Source of the DNA: a virus
IMG/VR virus record: IMGVR_UViG_3300007074_000073
Coordinates: 1-28,576 of that record
DNA: 28,576 nt
Direction: 5' to 3' (one strand)
In this document: piece by piece, positions 1 to 11,463 of the stretch
Layout: every line of letters begins with the position of its first letter
Position numbering within the stretch: the stretch's first letter is position 1
Notes under the pieces: model-generated
What the model was told of the DNA's origin: nothing
Database searches by the model: none
Seen by the model: only the letters and a program-made list of their open reading frames with translations
Program-made: the position numbers and the translations under genes

Positions 1-3000
1 AATTTGTTGAGCACGTACAGCACGGCGTCATTGAGAGAGTTTATTTCCGGCTCTCTCTCCTGGCTGACGATATTCCGCAAGAACACCTCGCCTTTGGTGG
101 CTTCGCCGGTGCTCTCGTCGAAATCCTCGATCGCGCGCAGGCGGTAATATTCCTGATCTCCAAAGAACGGGTCGATGTTTTCCCGCTTCTCAATGGCGGT
201 ATCAGTCATATCCTCGGGATTGAACGTCCCCTCGTCCCAAGGCGCGTTCCGGGCTTCGGCTTCCTCGCGGGCTTCTTTGCGGGCTTTGGCGATGGCGGTG
301 TTCTTCTCACCGGCGGCAATCAGCCGGCTGGGATCGAACGAACCCTCTTCGAAGATATCACCGATATAGCGGGCTTCCTCGCGGGCGGTCGAGCGGGCGC
401 CTTCCTGTTGGATCACGGTCGGCCCGCGGAATTTCACTTCCAGCTTATTGATAGGCCCGTTCTTCTTCACAAAGGCGTCATATTCGCTGTTCAGGCGCTT
501 CCGGGCCGCGGTGGCGTTGGCAGTGTCTTTTCCCAAGTCAGCCGCATACACAGCCCGCAGAGCGTCGCGAATGGGTATCAGAGCCCTGATGCGATCCATT
601 TCGCCTTTGGTCTTGCCGCCCTTGACGCCTTTGCCCCGGCGTTGGAGCTTCCGACCGACACCGCTTTCCATCTGATAAAGCTCGCCGTCCGTGTGAACGT
701 AGTATGAGCCCTCTTTCTGCTCGGTCGTACCGAAGTCAGCCTCGGCCCTGCCGGTCGTGTCTTTCCAGTCCGACATGATGTCGATCGGGAATGTATCAAT
801 CTGCTTCTGGATTGGCCCTTCGAGCGAAACGCCCTTCTGACCGCGAACGGCATACCGCCCAAGGTACAGCTTGTCGAAAAAGCCCTGCTCGCCAAGGATG
901 CGATCGGGATTGTCGTTGAAATACTGGTTCGAATTACCCAGTGTTTCCGTGCCCTCTTTGTTGGGCAGGCTGACAGATCTGGTCTGCGTCCACTTATCCG
1001 CGGGAACGGCGGCCTCGAACGGCGCATCCGGGTCTTTCTTACGCAAAAAGATAATGTCGGTCGTGACGCTCGTTCCGGCGTTGCCAGCAAAGGCCGTATC
1101 GGGCAGGCGGATAGCCGCCACCAGGTCCGCGCGCTCTGCCAGATATTCACGGGCCTCGCTGTCGAGCTTGTTCATGGTGCCGGCAGACGTAATGAACGCC
1201 AGCAGGCCGCCGGGTCGCACCGCATCGAGCGACTTCGCAAAGAAATAGTCATGCAGCAGGAACTTCTGCGGGTACTTCGGATCTGTCTGGATCGAGATAT
1301 CAGCGAAAGGCGGGTTGCCGATCACCATGTCATAGGTATCGGTCGGGAGCGGGCTGCGCGTGAAATCGTCCTGCCGGATACCAGACTGCGGGTAAAGCAG
1401 GCGGGCAATGCGGGCGGTCGTGTGGTCAAGCTCAAGCCCGCTATAATCGACCCGCGCGGCGACCGTCTCCGGCGCCATACCGATGAAGTTGCCCGAACCC
1501 ATGCCGGGCTCGAACACCTTGCCGCCCTTGAACCCAAGGCGTTCCACCGCCGCCCACATCGAGCGGACAATAGTTTCGGATGTGTAATGGGCATACTGGA
1601 TCGACCGTTGCGCCGTCCGGTATTCGGTATCGGAAAGCATGCTCTGCAATTGGGCCCCGATTTCCTCGAACCCCTTACCGAAGTTGCCGTCCGCGTCTGG
1701 GAACGCGCCTTTGATGCCGCCCCAGCCGACATACAAAGCGAGTTCTCTTTGCTCGCCATGCGTGGCGTTTCTGCCCTCTGCCTCAATCTCACGCATCAAC
1801 TCGATCGCGCGAATATTGCCAGTGGCCTTCGCCTTCGGGCCGCGGCTCTCGTCCAGTGCGCCGGGCTCGATGGTGTAGTTTTTGCCCTTTACGCTGTCGC
1901 GCTTACCCTTTCGTCCTGCGGAAACTCTATCAGGGCTGCTATTACCTGACGTTCCGCTTCCCGCCGGTGAGGCTGTTTTACCTGGCCGCTTTCCTCCTTC
2001 GGTGCGTTCGCTGTCAGGTCGGCCAGCATCCGGTACGCTTCCTCCGTTTTCTCCTGCAGGTGTTGATCCATCTTCCCCGATGTCCTCAGTTCCCTGAACA
2101 TCTGTGGGGCTTGCTCCTGCATCGCTCGCAGGTACGGCATTTTGAATTCCATCATCAGTCTCCGTTTCAGTGATTTCGTTCGCCGGCGTCATGCCGGTAG
2201 TGTCCATCCCCGGCCAATTGCGGGCCGCCTCGTAGAAGGATTTCAGGTACGGGCGGATACCTTCGCCCAGGTCGCCAACCATCGCGGCGGAGTATTTCGC
2301 GAATGAACGCGCCCCAGCCTCGATGTGGTAGCCGGCAAGCGTAATGCCGTGCATCATAATTTCAGGGTCAACGCCGGATGATATATTTCCCAGCTTCTTC
2401 CGCAGAGCTTCGCGCGCCTTTTCGGCTGCGCTCTGTGTGAATATCTTGTTCTCACCGCCGTATCCCGGCTCTTGATCGGGTTTTGATTCTGGCGCAGGAA
2501 TTCCCATGGGCGCCGCGGAATCCTGCGGTTTAGGTTCTTGGTTGGTGCCCTTGAGAGCGTCCAATTCAGCGAATGCCTTTTCGAGAACGGCCTTTGTCGG
2601 GAACTCGCCAGACTCCACTTCCCAGTAGGGCTCACCAGCGCGACGGCTTCCCGGCCCGTTGGTCCCACGGGTAACGATAGTTCCACTGGGCATGTGGATG
2701 GTTTGCACCACGTTTCCAGCAGTATCCGTGCGCGAGCGGCCCTTGTAGCCGGCGCCGAACTCTTTCCACGGCCCGTATACGATGTCGCCATCGGGCTTCG
2801 CAATAGGTGCGTCAAGGGTGCCAACAACAGGGCTTTTGTCCCCGAGGCCCAGCTTTGCAAGCAACTGGTCTGCGTGTTCGTTCGTTTTAACCCGGGCCGT
2901 GACCTTGCCGATTTCTCCGCCTTTTTCAATCGAGAAAATAGACGCTGGCGCACCAGCGTAATCCGTGACGGTGTATCCGTCCGGCAGTTTCCCGGCGATA

Positions 3001-6000
3001 TAATCGATTATGCCCTCTCGGGCGGAGCGGTCTGCTTTACGGGCGGCCATGAATAAGCCCGCCTCTGTGATATCAGTCAATTCACGGGCCATTTCCCCAG
3101 CGGTCATGTCGACGGAGAGCCAACGGTTTGGGCCACCACGGCTTACGCCGCTGTTTCTGGTGACGCTGCGCGCCACAATGGAAATACCACCATTCGGCCC
3201 AGACAGAGCGGCCCCAATCTGCATATACACACCGCTCTGATCGGGGCGGTACAACTCAAGATACACATCGCCAGAAACCGCAATGCCGCCTTCATTGATA
3301 CGGACGGAATTCCCCAGCTTGCCTTTTTTCTTGCTCGGCCCCGGCTCGAAACCATCAGCAATCATAATCTCAGCAATAGCGCGCGCGAACTTCCGGCCGT
3401 CAGCGAGGAAGCGGTTTTTCGTCGGGCCGCCGTCATTGTCGCCGTCGACGCCGCCCTCGTCGGGGTGCGGGATTACCGTGTTCGACCAGTCTTCCATCTT
3501 CGTGCCGGCCTTCGGGTGGATCTCCCCACCGCGCTCGGCGTCCGTCTTCCCGTCCCTGCCGACTTTGTTGATGAACACGCGGGGGCCGCTGTTTCCGGCC
3601 TTTTCTGCATTCACCTTCTCGATAAGATCGCGGGTCTTCGTGCTCGGCGCCGGCAGGTTGCCATCCTGATCCGCGCTTGGGAACTCAGCGACTTGGTTGA
3701 GCAAATCGACGATCGGAGCATCGAGGCGAATGATCCTGATCTCCGCGCCTTCATCAACCTTCGCCATCCACTGATGATGACCGTCAACGATATGGCCGTC
3801 CTTGGAGACCAGTATCGCGCGATCGCCGCCCTCGAACGACTTGGCCTTGGCAACCTTCTTCTCGGAGAATTCCGCCTGTGTCGGCTTGAGCGAGTCCGCC
3901 TGAACGGTTTCTTCCGTGCCGTCGATGTCGCGCGCCTTCAAGAAATTGGCGAGCGCACCCCGATGCTCGGCCTTGACCTGGGGCATGCTGTCCCGGGGGA
4001 TACCGAGCGAGCCCGAATCCTTGGCAAACTCCACCCATTCGCCGTCGACCTTTTCGCCGCGGAACTTGGTGTTTTCCCCGGCTTCGGGAACGGCGGAATC
4101 AGTCTTATTGTCCTCTTGGCCGAAAAGGTTATTTGAGTTATCAGCCGCGCCTTCTTCTTCTGATATAATTCCATCGTATATGATCTGTGCATTGTTGCCG
4201 CGGAGCCATTTCGACACATCGGCAGACCCCGGTTCGTCGCGCTCAGATAGCGCCGCCTGATATCCCTGCAAATATGGCTGTATCTGGCCTTCCGAGAAGC
4301 CGTAGTTACTCCTGTTGAACGGCTTGCCGTCCACACCATCACGATAACCTTGGGTCATTTTAAACGCGACGGAGCTGGTGCGATCCACATCACCAGAAAC
4401 GGATTTGAATATCCTCTTAAAATCCTTGTTCATCCACGTTTTTAGGTGGGTTTGCTTACTTTTTTCAAACCCTTCGGCATTACCAGACTGCTCCTGAACA
4501 AACGGGCGCCCCTTCCTGAACTCTCCATCGCGCGTGATATGTCCAACAACCACATTGCTGGCGTTCGTTATCAGGACGTTCTGGCGCTCGCTTTCGGGCG
4601 CCCCGGAAGCGTTGACGGTGTTTTCCCACCGCGCACGCAGATCCTCATAGGAATCGATCGGGAACGCCTCTCCTTTGATGCCGATTTGTGCGTTGACAGG
4701 CCCCTTGCTCGATATGTCAGCAAAGACCGCCAGATCGGCCCGGCGCTGGTCCGCCTCGATCTCTGCGCCCTGCTCTACCGATAGCTCGACCTCCCCGTCT
4801 TCGTTTACAGGAGGCTGCGGTCCGTCATCATTCTGGTTGGCCGCATCGGTTTCCGCCTCTATCTCGGCGGCCTTCTGGGCTTCCGTGACCTTTGGGTCTG
4901 TCTGAACGGTGGGCATGCCCATTCCAGAGGCAATGATGCTCTCATCAAAGGCGTCCGACATCGCGTCGGCGGACGGGTCCGACATTTTCTGGGCATACAA
5001 CAACTCAGCCAGATCATTCAGAACTTGTTGCAAGTGTTCTGCATTGTTGGCTTGGAACGCTGTTGTTCTCGGATCATTTGCGCCGGTTCCGCCTCGAATG
5101 ATGGTTTGGGCGGCTACAAAATCGCCCTCACTATTCAAGATCAGATCGTTCATAAAGATGCCGTTAGCAGCGGTTCCTATCTCTGTCAGCTTCGGTGCTT
5201 CAAAAAATTCAGCGGTTTCGACTATCTTGTAACCGCGGTCTGTTCTTTCCAGCCGGACACCAACCGGATAACCTTCTGGGTCGTCGACACCTTCCTTAAC
5301 CAGCGCGGTCTGGGCTTCCGTGACCGGGCCGATATCAGGGGTTTTGATTTTGGGGTCGGCTGGCGCCGGCGGAACGGTCGGCTTCGGCGCCATCATGTCG
5401 GTAGGTGCCGCCGGCTCGGGGGTGGAGGGAATCGACCCCTCTGCCGGCGGCGAGGCAACCACATCAGCCGGCACAGGAATACCGGCCGGCGCAGTCGCCT
5501 CTTCCCCGGCCCGTGTGGCTTCGGGGTCGGGAACGGAAATCGGGCTGATGGTGACACCACCGCGCGATAGCTCGGATGACAGGGCTTCGAACTCGGTGCC
5601 GTCTTCCAGGCGCACGGTAACGCCCGTGTCCTCGATGTTCAGGGAATCGACGCTCTCCGTGAATGCATCCTCGACGATGCCGGTTTGCACCAGTCCATCG
5701 GGGTGCTGGATAACAACGGGAGTGCCAATCGGGGGAAGTGTGGCGCCGTCGAGTTTCTCGTTCGCACCCTTCTGCGCGAGCGCGTCAGCGATGATCGCCT
5801 TGCCTGCACTGATTGTCTCGTCGGGGATGACGCTCGCCCGGTCGCCATCGTTAAGCTGCGGGATGGGCATGCGCGCACGATCGCCGCGGGGCTGGCCGGG
5901 GATGGCCGAACCTGTCTTGCGGCCCACCAGAGCTGCGGCGACGGGAACCTCAACAACGGCTGTCGGACCCTCTGCCAGTCCTTCAAGCAGGATCTCACCG

Positions 6001-7073
6001 GGCTTAAGCTCACCATCGGCGGCGAGGCCCGCAAGCGTCTCGCCAGTCGCGCCGGCGACGGCCTGAACGGGCATTTGCGCCACCACGTTCGCAGCCTCAC
6101 GCGCGGCGGGGCTCAACGTCCTGCCGCCTATAACCGCCGGGGCAATCATCTTGCCAGCGATGCCGGCGGAAATCATATCCAAGAACGCGATGGGCAGACC
6201 CCGGGCATTGGCCCTCTCTCTGGCGATAGTCAGCACTTCGGGGTCAAGGAACGCCTCTGCAATCGCCTTCTCGTCGGTCACGTCGACGCCAATCTCTTGA
6301 AGCGTCTGGATCAGGGAGAGCCCGTGCTCTGCCATAAACGAACCAGCGCCAAAGCCAAGGGCGGGGCCGGCAACCGCACTCAGGGCTATCCCGGGGGCCA
6401 TCAGCGGCAGGCTTTGCATTGCAACACGCGCGATCGATGCCGGGTTGTCCCAAGCTGCCTGTGCGGCCTCTCCGAACGTCTTGGCCTCGGAGATCTCCTG
6501 CAAGCCCGGATCTTGCGGCAATTTGGCGATAGCTTCCTGCTGTCCGGCGATACCCTTGAACTGGCGGACTATATCCTTTTCGTACTTTCCCCGCATTTTT
6601 GCGCGGATATCCTCACTCGCCTGGGCATACATCGAGATTTCAGGATTGCGGCCCGCGCGCTGCATGAGCACCGAGAGCCCCTTTTCGTTACCGGCGGCGC
6701 GGTGTTCGTCGATCTGTGCCATGAGACGCAGTTTTTCAGCATGACCACTGGCAACGATGGCGCGGCCAGCTACCGCCAGATTGCGCCCGCCAGTCTCAAG
6801 CGGGTCGGCAAAGTTCCGGTCTACGAATGATTGGTCTTGGAAGGAAAGCCGGGGGAAGGCGGAATCTTCTGCCGGGGCAGCCGTTTGCGCCGCCGCCCCA
6901 GCATCTTCGAACGGGTTGAAGTCGAGTTCTTCAAGCCTGCTCGATGCGGCGTTCCCACTTGCCGGTGTGGTCGTATCGTTTTCGAACGGATTGCCGTCCA
7001 GTTCGATAAGGTCGGATGAAATCTCAGAGTCGTCGTCTTCGAAGGGGTTATATTCCAACGGCTCTAAGGGCAT
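1..7073 (-). CDS. Giant polyvalent phage protein with ParB-like and N6-adenine methylase domains (partial, C-terminus outside window)
   Basis: One frame is open from the ATG at 7073 to the left edge (at least 2357 codons). Visible parts: three NPFE repeats (residues 9, 28, 53); a helical region; a long hydrophobic Gly/Ala segment (about 205-360) that could cross or coat a membrane; acidic and proline-rich linkers; a ParB/sulfiredoxin-like stretch with DGHHQW at 1097-1102; a conserved block GITLAGYHIEAGARSFAKY at 1576-1594; a low-complexity linker (1640-1729); then an N6-adenine methylase with motif I FEPGMGSGNF (1854-1863) and motif IV NPPF (1920-1923). Proteins with this build usually continue into a SNF2-type helicase, which would lie left of the window. 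The family (polyvalent proteins of phages and conjugative elements) is thought to enter the host with the DNA and protect or reprogram it; last place after the internal virion genes fits that. Its start follows the upstream stop directly, with AAGGTG as a fair ribosome site. Methylase call is firm; ejection is inferred. Confidence 0.9.
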   Translation of the reverse strand, partial: MPLEPLEYNPFEDDDSEISSDLIELDGNPFENDTTTPASGNAASSRLEELDFNPFEDAGAAAQTAAPAEDSAFPRLSFQDQSFVDRNFADPLETGGRNLAVAGRAIVASGHAEKLRLMAQIDEHRAAGNEKGLSVLMQRAGRNPEISMYAQASEDIRAKMRGKYEKDIVRQFKGIAGQQEAIAKLPQDPGLQEISEAKTFGEAAQAAWDNPASIARVAMQSLPLMAPGIALSAVAGPALGFGAGSFMAEHGLSLIQTLQEIGVDVTDEKAIAEAFLDPEVLTIARERANARGLPIAFLDMISAGIAGKMIAPAVIGGRTLSPAAREAANVVAQMPVQAVAGATGETLAGLAADGELKPGEILLEGLAEGPTAVVEVPVAAALVGRKTGSAIPGQPRGDRARMPIPQLNDGDRASVIPDETISAGKAIIADALAQKGANEKLDGATLPPIGTPVVIQHPDGLVQTGIVEDAFTESVDSLNIEDTGVTVRLEDGTEFEALSSELSRGGVTISPISVPDPEATRAGEEATAPAGIPVPADVVASPPAEGSIPSTPEPAAPTDMMAPKPTVPPAPADPKIKTPDIGPVTEAQTALVKEGVDDPEGYPVGVRLERTDRGYKIVETAEFFEAPKLTEIGTAANGIFMNDLILNSEGDFVAAQTIIRGGTGANDPRTTAFQANNAEHLQQVLNDLAELLYAQKMSDPSADAMSDAFDESIIASGMGMPTVQTDPKVTEAQKAAEIEAETDAANQNDDGPQPPVNEDGEVELSVEQGAEIEADQRRADLAVFADISSKGPVNAQIGIKGEAFPIDSYEDLRARWENTVNASGAPESERQNVLITNASNVVVGHITRDGEFRKGRPFVQEQSGNAEGFEKSKQTHLKTWMNKDFKRIFKSVSGDVDRTSSVAFKMTQGYRDGVDGKPFNRSNYGFSEGQIQPYLQGYQAALSERDEPGSADVSKWLRGNNAQIIYDGIISEEEGAADNSNNLFGQEDNKTDSAVPEAGENTKFRGEKVDGEWVEFAKDSGSLGIPRDSMPQVKAEHRGALANFLKARDIDGTEETVQADSLKPTQAEFSEKKVAKAKSFEGGDRAILVSKDGHIVDGHHQWMAKVDEGAEIRIIRLDAPIVDLLNQVAEFPSADQDGNLPAPSTKTRDLIEKVNAEKAGNSGPRVFINKVGRDGKTDAERGGEIHPKAGTKMEDWSNTVIPHPDEGGVDGDNDGGPTKNRFLADGRKFARAIAEIMIADGFEPGPSKKKGKLGNSVRINEGGIAVSGDVYLELYRPDQSGVYMQIGAALSGPNGGISIVARSVTRNSGVSRGGPNRWLSVDMTAGEMARELTDITEAGLFMAARKADRSAREGIIDYIAGKLPDGYTVTDYAGAPASIFSIEKGGEIGKVTARVKTNEHADQLLAKLGLGDKSPVVGTLDAPIAKPDGDIVYGPWKEFGAGYKGRSRTDTAGNVVQTIHMPSGTIVTRGTNGPGSRRAGEPYWEVESGEFPTKAVLEKAFAELDALKGTNQEPKPQDSAAPMGIPAPESKPDQEPGYGGENKIFTQSAAEKAREALRKKLGNISSGVDPEIMMHGITLAGYHIEAGARSFAKYSAAMVGDLGEGIRPYLKSFYEAARNWPGMDTTGMTPANEITETETDDGIQNAVPASDAGASPTDVQGTEDIGEDGSTPAGENGGSVPDAGRPDSERTEGGKRPGKTASPAGSGTSGNSSPDRVSAGRKGKRDSVKGKNYTIEPGALDESRGPKAKATGNIRAIELMREIEAEGRNATHGEQRELALYVGWGGIKGAFPDADGNFGKGFEEIGAQLQSMLSDTEYRTAQRSIQYAHYTSETIVRSMWAAVERLGFKGGKVFEPGMGSGNFIGMAPETVAARVDYSGLELDHTTARIARLLYPQSGIRQDDFTRSPLPTDTYDMVIGNPPFADISIQTDPKYPQKFLLHDYFFAKSLDAVRPGGLLAFITSAGTMNKLDSEAREYLAERADLVAAIRLPDTAFAGNAGTSVTTDIIFLRKKDPDAPFEAAVPADKWTQTRSVSLPNKEGTETLGNSNQYFNDNPDRILGEQGFFDKLYLGRYAVRGQKGVSLEGPIQKQIDTFPIDIMSDWKDTTGRAEADFGTTEQKEGSYYVHTDGELYQMESGVGRKLQRRGKGVKGGKTKGEMDRIRALIPIRDALRAVYAADLGKDTANATAARKRLNSEYDAFVKKNGPINKLEVKFRGPTVIQQEGARSTAREEARYIGDIFEEGSFDPSRLIAAGEKNTAIAKARKEAREEAEARNAPWDEGTFNPEDMTDTAIEKRENIDPFFGDQEYYRLRAIEDFDESTGEATKGEVFLRNIVSQEREPEINSLNDAVLYVLNK
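1889..2155 (-). CDS. TnpV-like small protein nested out of frame in the giant gene
   Basis: An 88-codon ORF lies wholly inside the giant gene in another frame of the same strand. A GGAG Shine-Dalgarno (2160-2163) sits 4 nt before the first and 7 nt before the second of two tandem ATGs. The product has a natural composition and an ordered pattern: YLRAMQEQAPQMF, then SGKMDQHLQEKTEEAY, then a charged variable stretch, then AERQVIAALIEFPQ. That matches my recollection of the TnpV family (YL...P..L..SGKL..HL.E...A...L, with a C-terminal hydrophobic helix), small proteins carried by mobile elements and of uncertain role. The giant gene encodes only a Gly/Ser/Asp/Pro-rich linker here (its residues 1640-1729), and its next conserved block starts just after this ORF's stop. 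So this frame may be the older, functional one. Family match is from memory, without an alignment score; expression is inferred. Confidence 0.7.
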   Translation of the reverse strand: MMEFKMPYLRAMQEQAPQMFRELRTSGKMDQHLQEKTEEAYRMLADLTANAPKEESGQVKQPHRREAERQVIAALIEFPQDERVSATA

Positions 7074-10540: not shown

Positions 10541-10822
10541 TCAGCCTTTCGCTTTCTGTTTCCGCCGGATCTCGTCAAGTTCTTCACGGAGTTCCCGGCA
10601 TTGTTCTTTCTCGGTTCCGCAGGTTTTGCCGTAGCGGTCCTGCAATGACCATATCCGCCGGGTGAGGCCATCAGCTTTATCGCGGAGTATCTTCTGATCG
10701 AGACGCTCGGAAAGCTGTGCAAATTCGACATGCAGAGCATATCGCGCATCAACGGCAAATGCAGCACTGATAAACATTACCAGCCCTGCAATTACCGAAA
10801 GAATGAGATTAAAGGGTTTCAT
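10541..10822 (-). CDS. Small membrane-anchored coiled-coil protein, possible inner-membrane spanin
   Basis: 93 residues: a hydrophobic N-terminal segment (about 5-25, LILSVIAGLVMFISAAFAV) acting as signal anchor, then a charged helical region with heptad-like spacing (about 30-90). Two cysteines lie about six residues apart (CGTEKEQC) and the tail is very basic. An N-terminal anchor plus periplasmic coiled coil, directly after a holin (ATGA overlap at 10819-10822), is the layout of an inner-membrane spanin. No sequence identity to a named spanin can be claimed, and no lipoprotein partner with a clear lipobox was found nested or adjacent. It could also be an unrelated lysis regulator. Confidence 0.75.
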   Translation of the reverse strand: MKPFNLILSVIAGLVMFISAAFAVDARYALHVEFAQLSERLDQKILRDKADGLTRRIWSLQDRYGKTCGTEKEQCRELREELDEIRRKQKAKG

Positions 10823-11463
10823 TTGAACACCTTGTCGTAGAGCGATTTTGCCTTGCCGGCGATTCCTGCAATGCCCGGGCTATCTCCGGTGCCCCTCGCA
10901 ATGCCAACCTGCCGCAGCGTCATGTAGGTAATGATGATGCTGCCCGCGGTCGGTGAGAACCATGTGTAGATTGCGACGAACCCGGATGAATCTGTCAGCA
11001 AGACCGATGCGAGATAATCGATCTGGGTCTTGGCGGTGCCGAAGGCTGAACTCAGGAGGTTATGCAACGCGATCGGCATGTCGATCAGAAACACCGCCCA
11101 GATGGGGAAAATCAGGGTACGCAGGCACCAGCGGACCACCCAGGGCCGCGTCGTCATACGCATTTCGGCAACCTTCGCAGCGGTTTCCGGCGGGAGTGCG
11201 TCAAGCACCTTGGCCGTCACGCTGCCCTGCTCGTTCCGCAGGCGGTTCGTCTCGGCCTTGTACAGATCGAGCTTGGCCGACATGGCTTCCCGCCATTTCT
11301 CGCGCTGTTCCTCGGTCATGTTGCCGACTTCGGCCTCAAGACCTTCGGGCGTGGTCGCAGTCGACGGCGTTCCGGTAACGGCTTCCACGACCGCCTTGCC
11401 TTCATCGAACAGGCCGGCGACCAGTTTTACACCTTCAAAGATAAGGGGGAGTGCTGCAAACAT
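10819..11463 (-). CDS. 3TM holin (gene-transfer-agent type)
   Basis: I place the start at the ATG at 11463, directly after the stop of the DUF5675 gene. The frame is open 31 codons further up, but that extension is Arg-rich overlap without family character. The 214-residue product has a weak N-terminal hydrophobic helix (AALPLIFEGVKLVAGLF), a charged helical middle, then RPWVVRWCLRTLIFPIWAVF and a last hydrophobic helix (GFVAIYTWFSPTAGSIII). This order and the 'TRPWVVR' entry to the second membrane segment match the 3TM holins first linked to alphaproteobacterial gene transfer agents. It would form the inner-membrane lesion that lets lysis proceed. Next to DUF5675 and a spanin-like gene it makes a lysis cassette. 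Confidence 0.82.
   Translation of the reverse strand: MFAALPLIFEGVKLVAGLFDEGKAVVEAVTGTPSTATTPEGLEAEVGNMTEEQREKWREAMSAKLDLYKAETNRLRNEQGSVTAKVLDALPPETAAKVAEMRMTTRPWVVRWCLRTLIFPIWAVFLIDMPIALHNLLSSAFGTAKTQIDYLASVLLTDSSGFVAIYTWFSPTAGSIIITYMTLRQVGIARGTGDSPGIAGIAGKAKSLYDKVFK

Follow-up and report, generated by a model that had tools for sequence, protein, structure and literature searches.

A giant DarB-like (methylase-SNF2) gene in a viral contig very probably contains a second, genuine protein-coding gene, which lies nested in its +1 frame, has a start of its own and encodes a TnpV-like protein, and comparison of homologous sequences indicates that this small gene is real, ancient and almost never annotated. 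The window analyzed here is a virus record of 28,576 bases, in which the relevant features, all on the minus strand, are the following:

3–7073 (−): giant DarB-like polyvalent gene, an open frame of which 2357 codons are present before the contig end cuts it off
2292–2348 (−): GITLAGYHIEAGARSFAKY, a conserved block seen in the main-frame translation, preceding the linker of the giant protein
2160–2163 (−): GGAG Shine-Dalgarno sequence, 4 nt before the first ATG of the nested ORF and 7 nt before the second
1889–2155 (−): putative nested TnpV-like gene, 88 codons, +1 relative to the giant gene, from the ORF and its translation
894–1856 (−): N6-adenine methyltransferase block encoded in the giant gene, immediately following the linker

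An initial annotation of this DNA had described an 88-codon ORF with tandem ATGs and a GGAG ribosome site, and its coordinates, frame and stop were all verified. The ORF lies wholly within the open frame 3–7073(−) at an offset of +1, begins with tandem ATGs at 2155–2150 in the arrangement GGAG-N4-ATGATG and ends with a TAA stop at 1891–1889, and is therefore a complete ORF embedded, in another frame, within an open coding gene. The second ATG (2152–2150), which opens the product with MEFK and would give 87 residues, is the likelier start because this residue aligns across the window subfamily and its relatives. Translation of the main frame agrees with the Gly/Ser/Asp/Pro linker that had been placed over the ORF (residues 1640–1729), and the conserved blocks said to flank it are present as described: GITLAGYHIEAGARSFAKY before the linker, which also occurs in the main frames of Atu_ph08 and PBC5, and the methylase block after it. 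The giant gene matches phrog_10089 (DarB-like antirestriction, E=2e-196), and its methylase block, identical to L004:4001-4963, matches Pfam N6_Mtase (E=4e-11) and Eco57I (E=9e-8). With both a DarB-like profile match and an adenine methylase domain, it belongs with the DarB-like polyvalent proteins (Iyer et al. 2017, PMC5512222); the window contig stops before any SNF2 helicase C-terminal to the methylase could appear. The survey of polyvalent proteins (PMC5512222) nowhere mentions TnpV or an overlapping gene.

The TnpV-like pattern that had been noticed in the small product was corroborated by profile comparison. Pfam PF14198 (TnpV) matches the window product at E=1.9e-5 and 25.0 bits, below the 27-bit gathering cut-off, and so we call the product TnpV-like rather than a member of the Pfam family; 13 of 33 phage homologues match PF14198 at E≤0.01. 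Aligned with HHalign to 26 canonical TnpV proteins, the nested profile gave a probability of 96.2 (E 2.2e-9, 72 columns), in an alignment that extends to the end of the TnpV profile and through its C-terminal helix, and the MNLQNW-type proteins alone matched the TnpV profile at E=2.9e-5. The nested products share with TnpV of Tn4451-type transposons and ICE-like elements the core P..hY..L...G.L..hL and the C-terminal AEE.V...LI helix, but the phage forms have a shorter N-terminus, and their scores lie near the Pfam cut-off or under it. AlphaFold predicts a four-helix protein (mean pLDDT 83) with no strand of at least 3 residues, but the model had no match in the PDB at E≤0.001, with no Xis among the matches, and no significant match in a viral structure library, where the best was Q8W6J4. 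A weak PADLOC match to Cas11e (E=0.013) was treated as chance.

The length of the nested ORF has no significance by itself, and a single sequence proves little. When synonymous codons were resampled with the linker amino acids fixed, the nested frame stayed free of stops in 76% of the versions; along these giant genes, +1 ORFs of at least 80 codons are common. Both observations are what would be expected of a chance open frame, in which a GC-rich Gly/Ser/Asp/Pro linker merely lacks +1 stops and the likeness to TnpV is accidental. Because the ORF alone proves little, the case for a nested gene rests on comparison with relatives. These were reached only via the neighboring methylase block: used as the sole query, the window ORF retrieved nothing but identical copies among viral contigs and had no match in the phage collection. 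The stretch from linker to methylase has homologues in 115 phage records, and a +1 ORF of ~100–130 codons lies in the same linker in Erwinia phages Pavtok, Stean and PEp14, in Klebsiella phages SopranoGao and LASTA, and in phages of Ochrobactrum, Agrobacterium, Pseudomonas (Itty13), Vibrio, Microcystis and Burkholderia, in most cases with a recognizable Shine-Dalgarno sequence.

Scanning viral and genome collections with the nested proteins identified 87 loci, and in 80 of these the ORF lay inside another open frame; 77 of the 80 enclosing frames were long, and the relative offset was identical in every case. To avoid selecting by the nested protein itself, we drew a second sample of 80 viral loci by the methylase block alone, 79 of which were testable. 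A +1 ORF of at least 80 codons was present at the slot in 76/79 of these loci (median 109), compared to 1/79 for the +2 frame, and when a Shine-Dalgarno sequence and at least 75 codons were required, 78/79 passed here versus 5–18 at each of five other slots within these genes; the sample includes near-copies, so these locus counts are not all independent. Among 104 distinct nested starts, 97 were ATG. A Shine-Dalgarno match of at least 4 bases preceded 96% of them and one of at least 5 bases 58%, compared to 29% and 6%, respectively, for control ATG/GTG codons in the same frame elsewhere in the same loci; starts were picked near the beginning of the profile, which favors plausible starts but not Shine-Dalgarno sites. 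The spacing from Shine-Dalgarno to start peaked at 6–9 bases.

Substitution patterns likewise distinguish the two frames, since the third codon position of the nested frame is the first position of the main frame. In 28 pairs, changes in the nested region fell on main positions 1/2/3 at 49/25/25%, compared to 22/17/61% in the downstream flank. In 44 disjoint pairs (no shared locus), 694/655/1147 changes were counted at nested positions 1/2/3, 41 of the 42 untied pairs had more changes at third than at second positions (sign test p=2e-11), and identity over the same bases was 77% for the nested and 64% for the main frame. Pairs formed with the window within its subfamily gave the same contrast (nested 41–61%, main 27–40%), and whole-gene scans of giants of ~4,300–4,900 codons flagged the nested segment in 4/4 pairs. 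Nested third positions changed at ~0.20 per codon versus 0.32 for downstream main-frame third positions, which shows that constraint acts on the main frame too and that it is no free linker. Selection is evident in the nested frame, and these comparisons support a nested frame under stronger selection with the main-frame linker as its relaxed overprint. This agrees with the earlier proposal that the linker was overprinted; neither of the outcomes set beforehand as counting against a nested gene, a product without family likeness or a linker kept while the nested frame is broken, occurred. Comparison therefore rejects a chance open frame, although ORF length alone does not: position, frame, start, Shine-Dalgarno sequence and motif are all kept across deeply diverged loci, the substitution phase tracks the nested frame and the nested product matches the TnpV profile, which together leave accident with next to no probability.

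The initial annotation also held that the small gene is kept and translated internally; the first part is consistent with selection in the nested frame, and the conserved start and Shine-Dalgarno sequence make such initiation likely. Internal initiation at this conserved site is the simplest reading. Ribosomes would initiate at the Shine-Dalgarno sequence on the mRNA of the giant gene and produce a mildly acidic, four-helix TnpV-like protein of 87–130 residues, and other ribosomes would translate the same DNA as a flexible linker joining two domains of the giant protein. The giant protein is known to be made in phage JC1, where 51 unique peptides of the DarB-like gp69 were detected in purified virions (PMC9144972).

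Programmed frameshifting would use the same signals differently: ribosomes on the giant gene would shift by +1 and release a giant protein cut short and ending in a TnpV-like tail, and the Shine-Dalgarno sequence would serve as stimulator. Internal Shine-Dalgarno sequences stimulate frameshifting in known cases, and in Sinorhizobium phage PBC5 (L022 / L056) the frame of the upstream part of the giant gene continues straight into the TnpV-like ORF, where the giant gene is split, although this may be a sequencing error rather than a real split. However, the start codon occupies a conserved column 6–9 nt behind the Shine-Dalgarno sequence in most loci, and an in-frame stop no more than 5 codons upstream leaves almost no window for a shift in 16/104 loci. 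Given the conserved start and the stop just upstream in some loci, we consider frameshifting highly unlikely and retain internal initiation. A separate observation concerns phrog_938, labelled endolysin, whose profile contains the block before the linker and matches 10 nested products, perhaps via a PBC5-type fusion.

The same arrangement was found beyond phages. Our bacterial sample comprised 300 genomes from the phylum of a Halanaerobiales MAG (G010/G039), with PF14198 present in 19 of them. Within this Bacillota-type group, 20 of 31 PF14198 hits were wholly enclosed by a long second frame, relative to which the nested gene was again at +1, whereas 11 of the 31 canonical TnpV genes examined stand alone; canonical TnpV genes are thus often themselves nested at +1 in giants, like the phage forms. 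The enclosing frames, mostly >2,000 codons, are giant ArdC/SNF2-methylase frames, one of which (L135) has SNF2 and methyltransferase matches, and the main frame over TnpV is a charged linker rich in Gly/Asp/Pro. Twelve Bacillota-type pairs had 32/22/46% of changes at nested positions 1/2/3. TnpV-like genes standing alone also occur in Proteobacteria, more rarely. As judged from these loci, the +1 arrangement is common to nearly all DarB-like genes sampled and to the giants of the Bacillota-type group, and is not particular to the window phage. On Virgibacillus plasmid NZ_CP033047.1 (17103-17435), a TnpV match lies beneath a protein annotated as SNF2-related, and the record lists no TnpV; nested copies can thus escape annotation in public records. 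Pseudidiomarina sediminum encodes a fusion of a TnpV-like domain with a hydrophobic tail that is probably transmembrane (L138:7784-8572(−)), adjoining McrBC and type I restriction genes in a likely defence island.

How the overlap arose can be addressed in part. The initial annotation had proposed that three genes were fused by readthrough, which fits the existence of standalone TnpV genes and the stronger selection on the nested frame; the TnpV tree, however, which is rooted only at its midpoint and requires three changes between nested and standalone position, does not settle the direction of change. Fusion over a pre-existing gene is plausible because TnpV genes also exist alone, and we lean toward the nested frame being the older, with the linker arising when reading frames joined over the small gene. 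A bolder reading, which we put forward tentatively, is that of one ancient overlapping pair: a TnpV-like gene and a giant methylase-SNF2 gene may have been locked in the same relative frame before the phages of Proteobacteria and the ICE-like elements of Bacillota diverged, with the small protein an obligate, hitherto unseen partner of the anti-restriction machine. If this is true, many public giant 'SNF2' or 'DarB' entries would conceal a second protein, and their low-complexity linkers would be its shadow.

Alternatively, the nested gene could derive from a homing or transposing element that is open in the host frame. There is precedent for this in out-of-frame HNH insertions in phage methylases (PMC11855218): in ShiLan, as here, a second protein is hidden and the host frame stays open throughout. 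DNA homology stops within ~30 nt of the nested start in some lineages and breaks at the nested stop in two Agrobacterium pairs, in keeping with insertion, but in many pairs it extends hundreds of bases further upstream. Moreover, ShiLan carries a homing element with an endonuclease, whereas the nested TnpV-like gene is near-universal in its family, present at 78/79 sampled loci rather than sporadically, and Pfam, PHROG and PADLOC profile searches found no endonuclease or recombinase similarity in the nested products. Neither the endonuclease domain nor the sporadic distribution that define a homing-endonuclease insertion was thus found, and we regard mobile insertion as exceedingly improbable. 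A breakpoint peak exactly at the nested start, seen in ten pairs, was not upheld as a rule, as in 143 pairs most breaks lay 300–600 nt upstream. Close pairs in which homology ends within ~30 nt of the nested start include L033/L034, L020/L035 and L049/L052, and L052 has a short repeat of the nested start ~400 nt upstream. These homology ends and the repeat suggest module exchange at this border, without a general rule.

The function of the small protein can be approached through its genomic context. It may work together with the giant protein, serving the methylase-SNF2 machine as a subunit, as a chaperone or as an accessory in DNA transfer; we offer this as a possibility somewhat short of even, since the argument is one of constant linkage, the two being encoded together in phages and ICE-like elements. 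The reports of TnpV that we found treat it as an ordinary transposon gene, and for TnpV of Tn4451 a part in excision has been postulated on the basis of its homology with lambda Xis (PMC3158075). The small protein could accordingly be a recombination-directionality (Xis-like) factor kept in the giant gene for expression, which is compatible with a real nested gene, and many carriers are prophages or ICE-like elements. However, the gene sits with a virion anti-restriction gene in a morphogenesis module, as in JC1, its product is mildly acidic (median −4.9 per 100 residues) and the predicted four helices, lacking a strand of at least 3 residues, have no structural match to Xis; the PDB fold search found no solved excisionase or winged-helix structure at E≤0.001. 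An Xis-like role is therefore unlikely in our view, and we prefer the view that the small protein is a partner of the giant one.

Nested overlapping genes, TnpV and DarB-like polyvalent proteins are each known, and in the searchable (non-subscription) literature we found neither TnpV combined with polyvalent proteins nor a gene nested in a DarB/SNF2 gene. In the embedded spanin genes Rz/Rz1 (PMC5295617), one phage gene likewise lies complete within another, out of frame and with a separate start, but the proteins and their function are unrelated and the Rz host gene is small. Of the annotated DarB-like phage records examined, only that of PBC5 includes the nested protein, listing it as orf33, unknown; the others lack it because annotation pipelines drop long overlaps. 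This would be an unusually widespread same-strand nested gene, and databases have very probably been missing a widespread second protein hidden in the giant anti-restriction genes of phages and bacterial mobile elements. It would also offer an entry point to two questions: how TnpV acts, and how giant injected anti-restriction proteins are assembled or delivered.

Two minor observations concern the giant genes of individual phages. Erwinia phages L122, L123 and L124 have two further +1 ORFs led by Shine-Dalgarno sequences and open in all three, which in PEp14 (L122) are located as follows:

giant gene nt 2465-2692: candidate extra +1 ORF N2, 76 codons
giant gene nt 10658-10879: candidate extra +1 ORF N3, 74 codons

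We do not claim N2 and N3 as nested genes, as their substitution phase is mixed. In Pseudomonas phage Itty13 (L020), a deposited 3.5-kb CDS at 427-3888 is opposite in strand to the DarB-like open frame, and the wrong strand was probably annotated.
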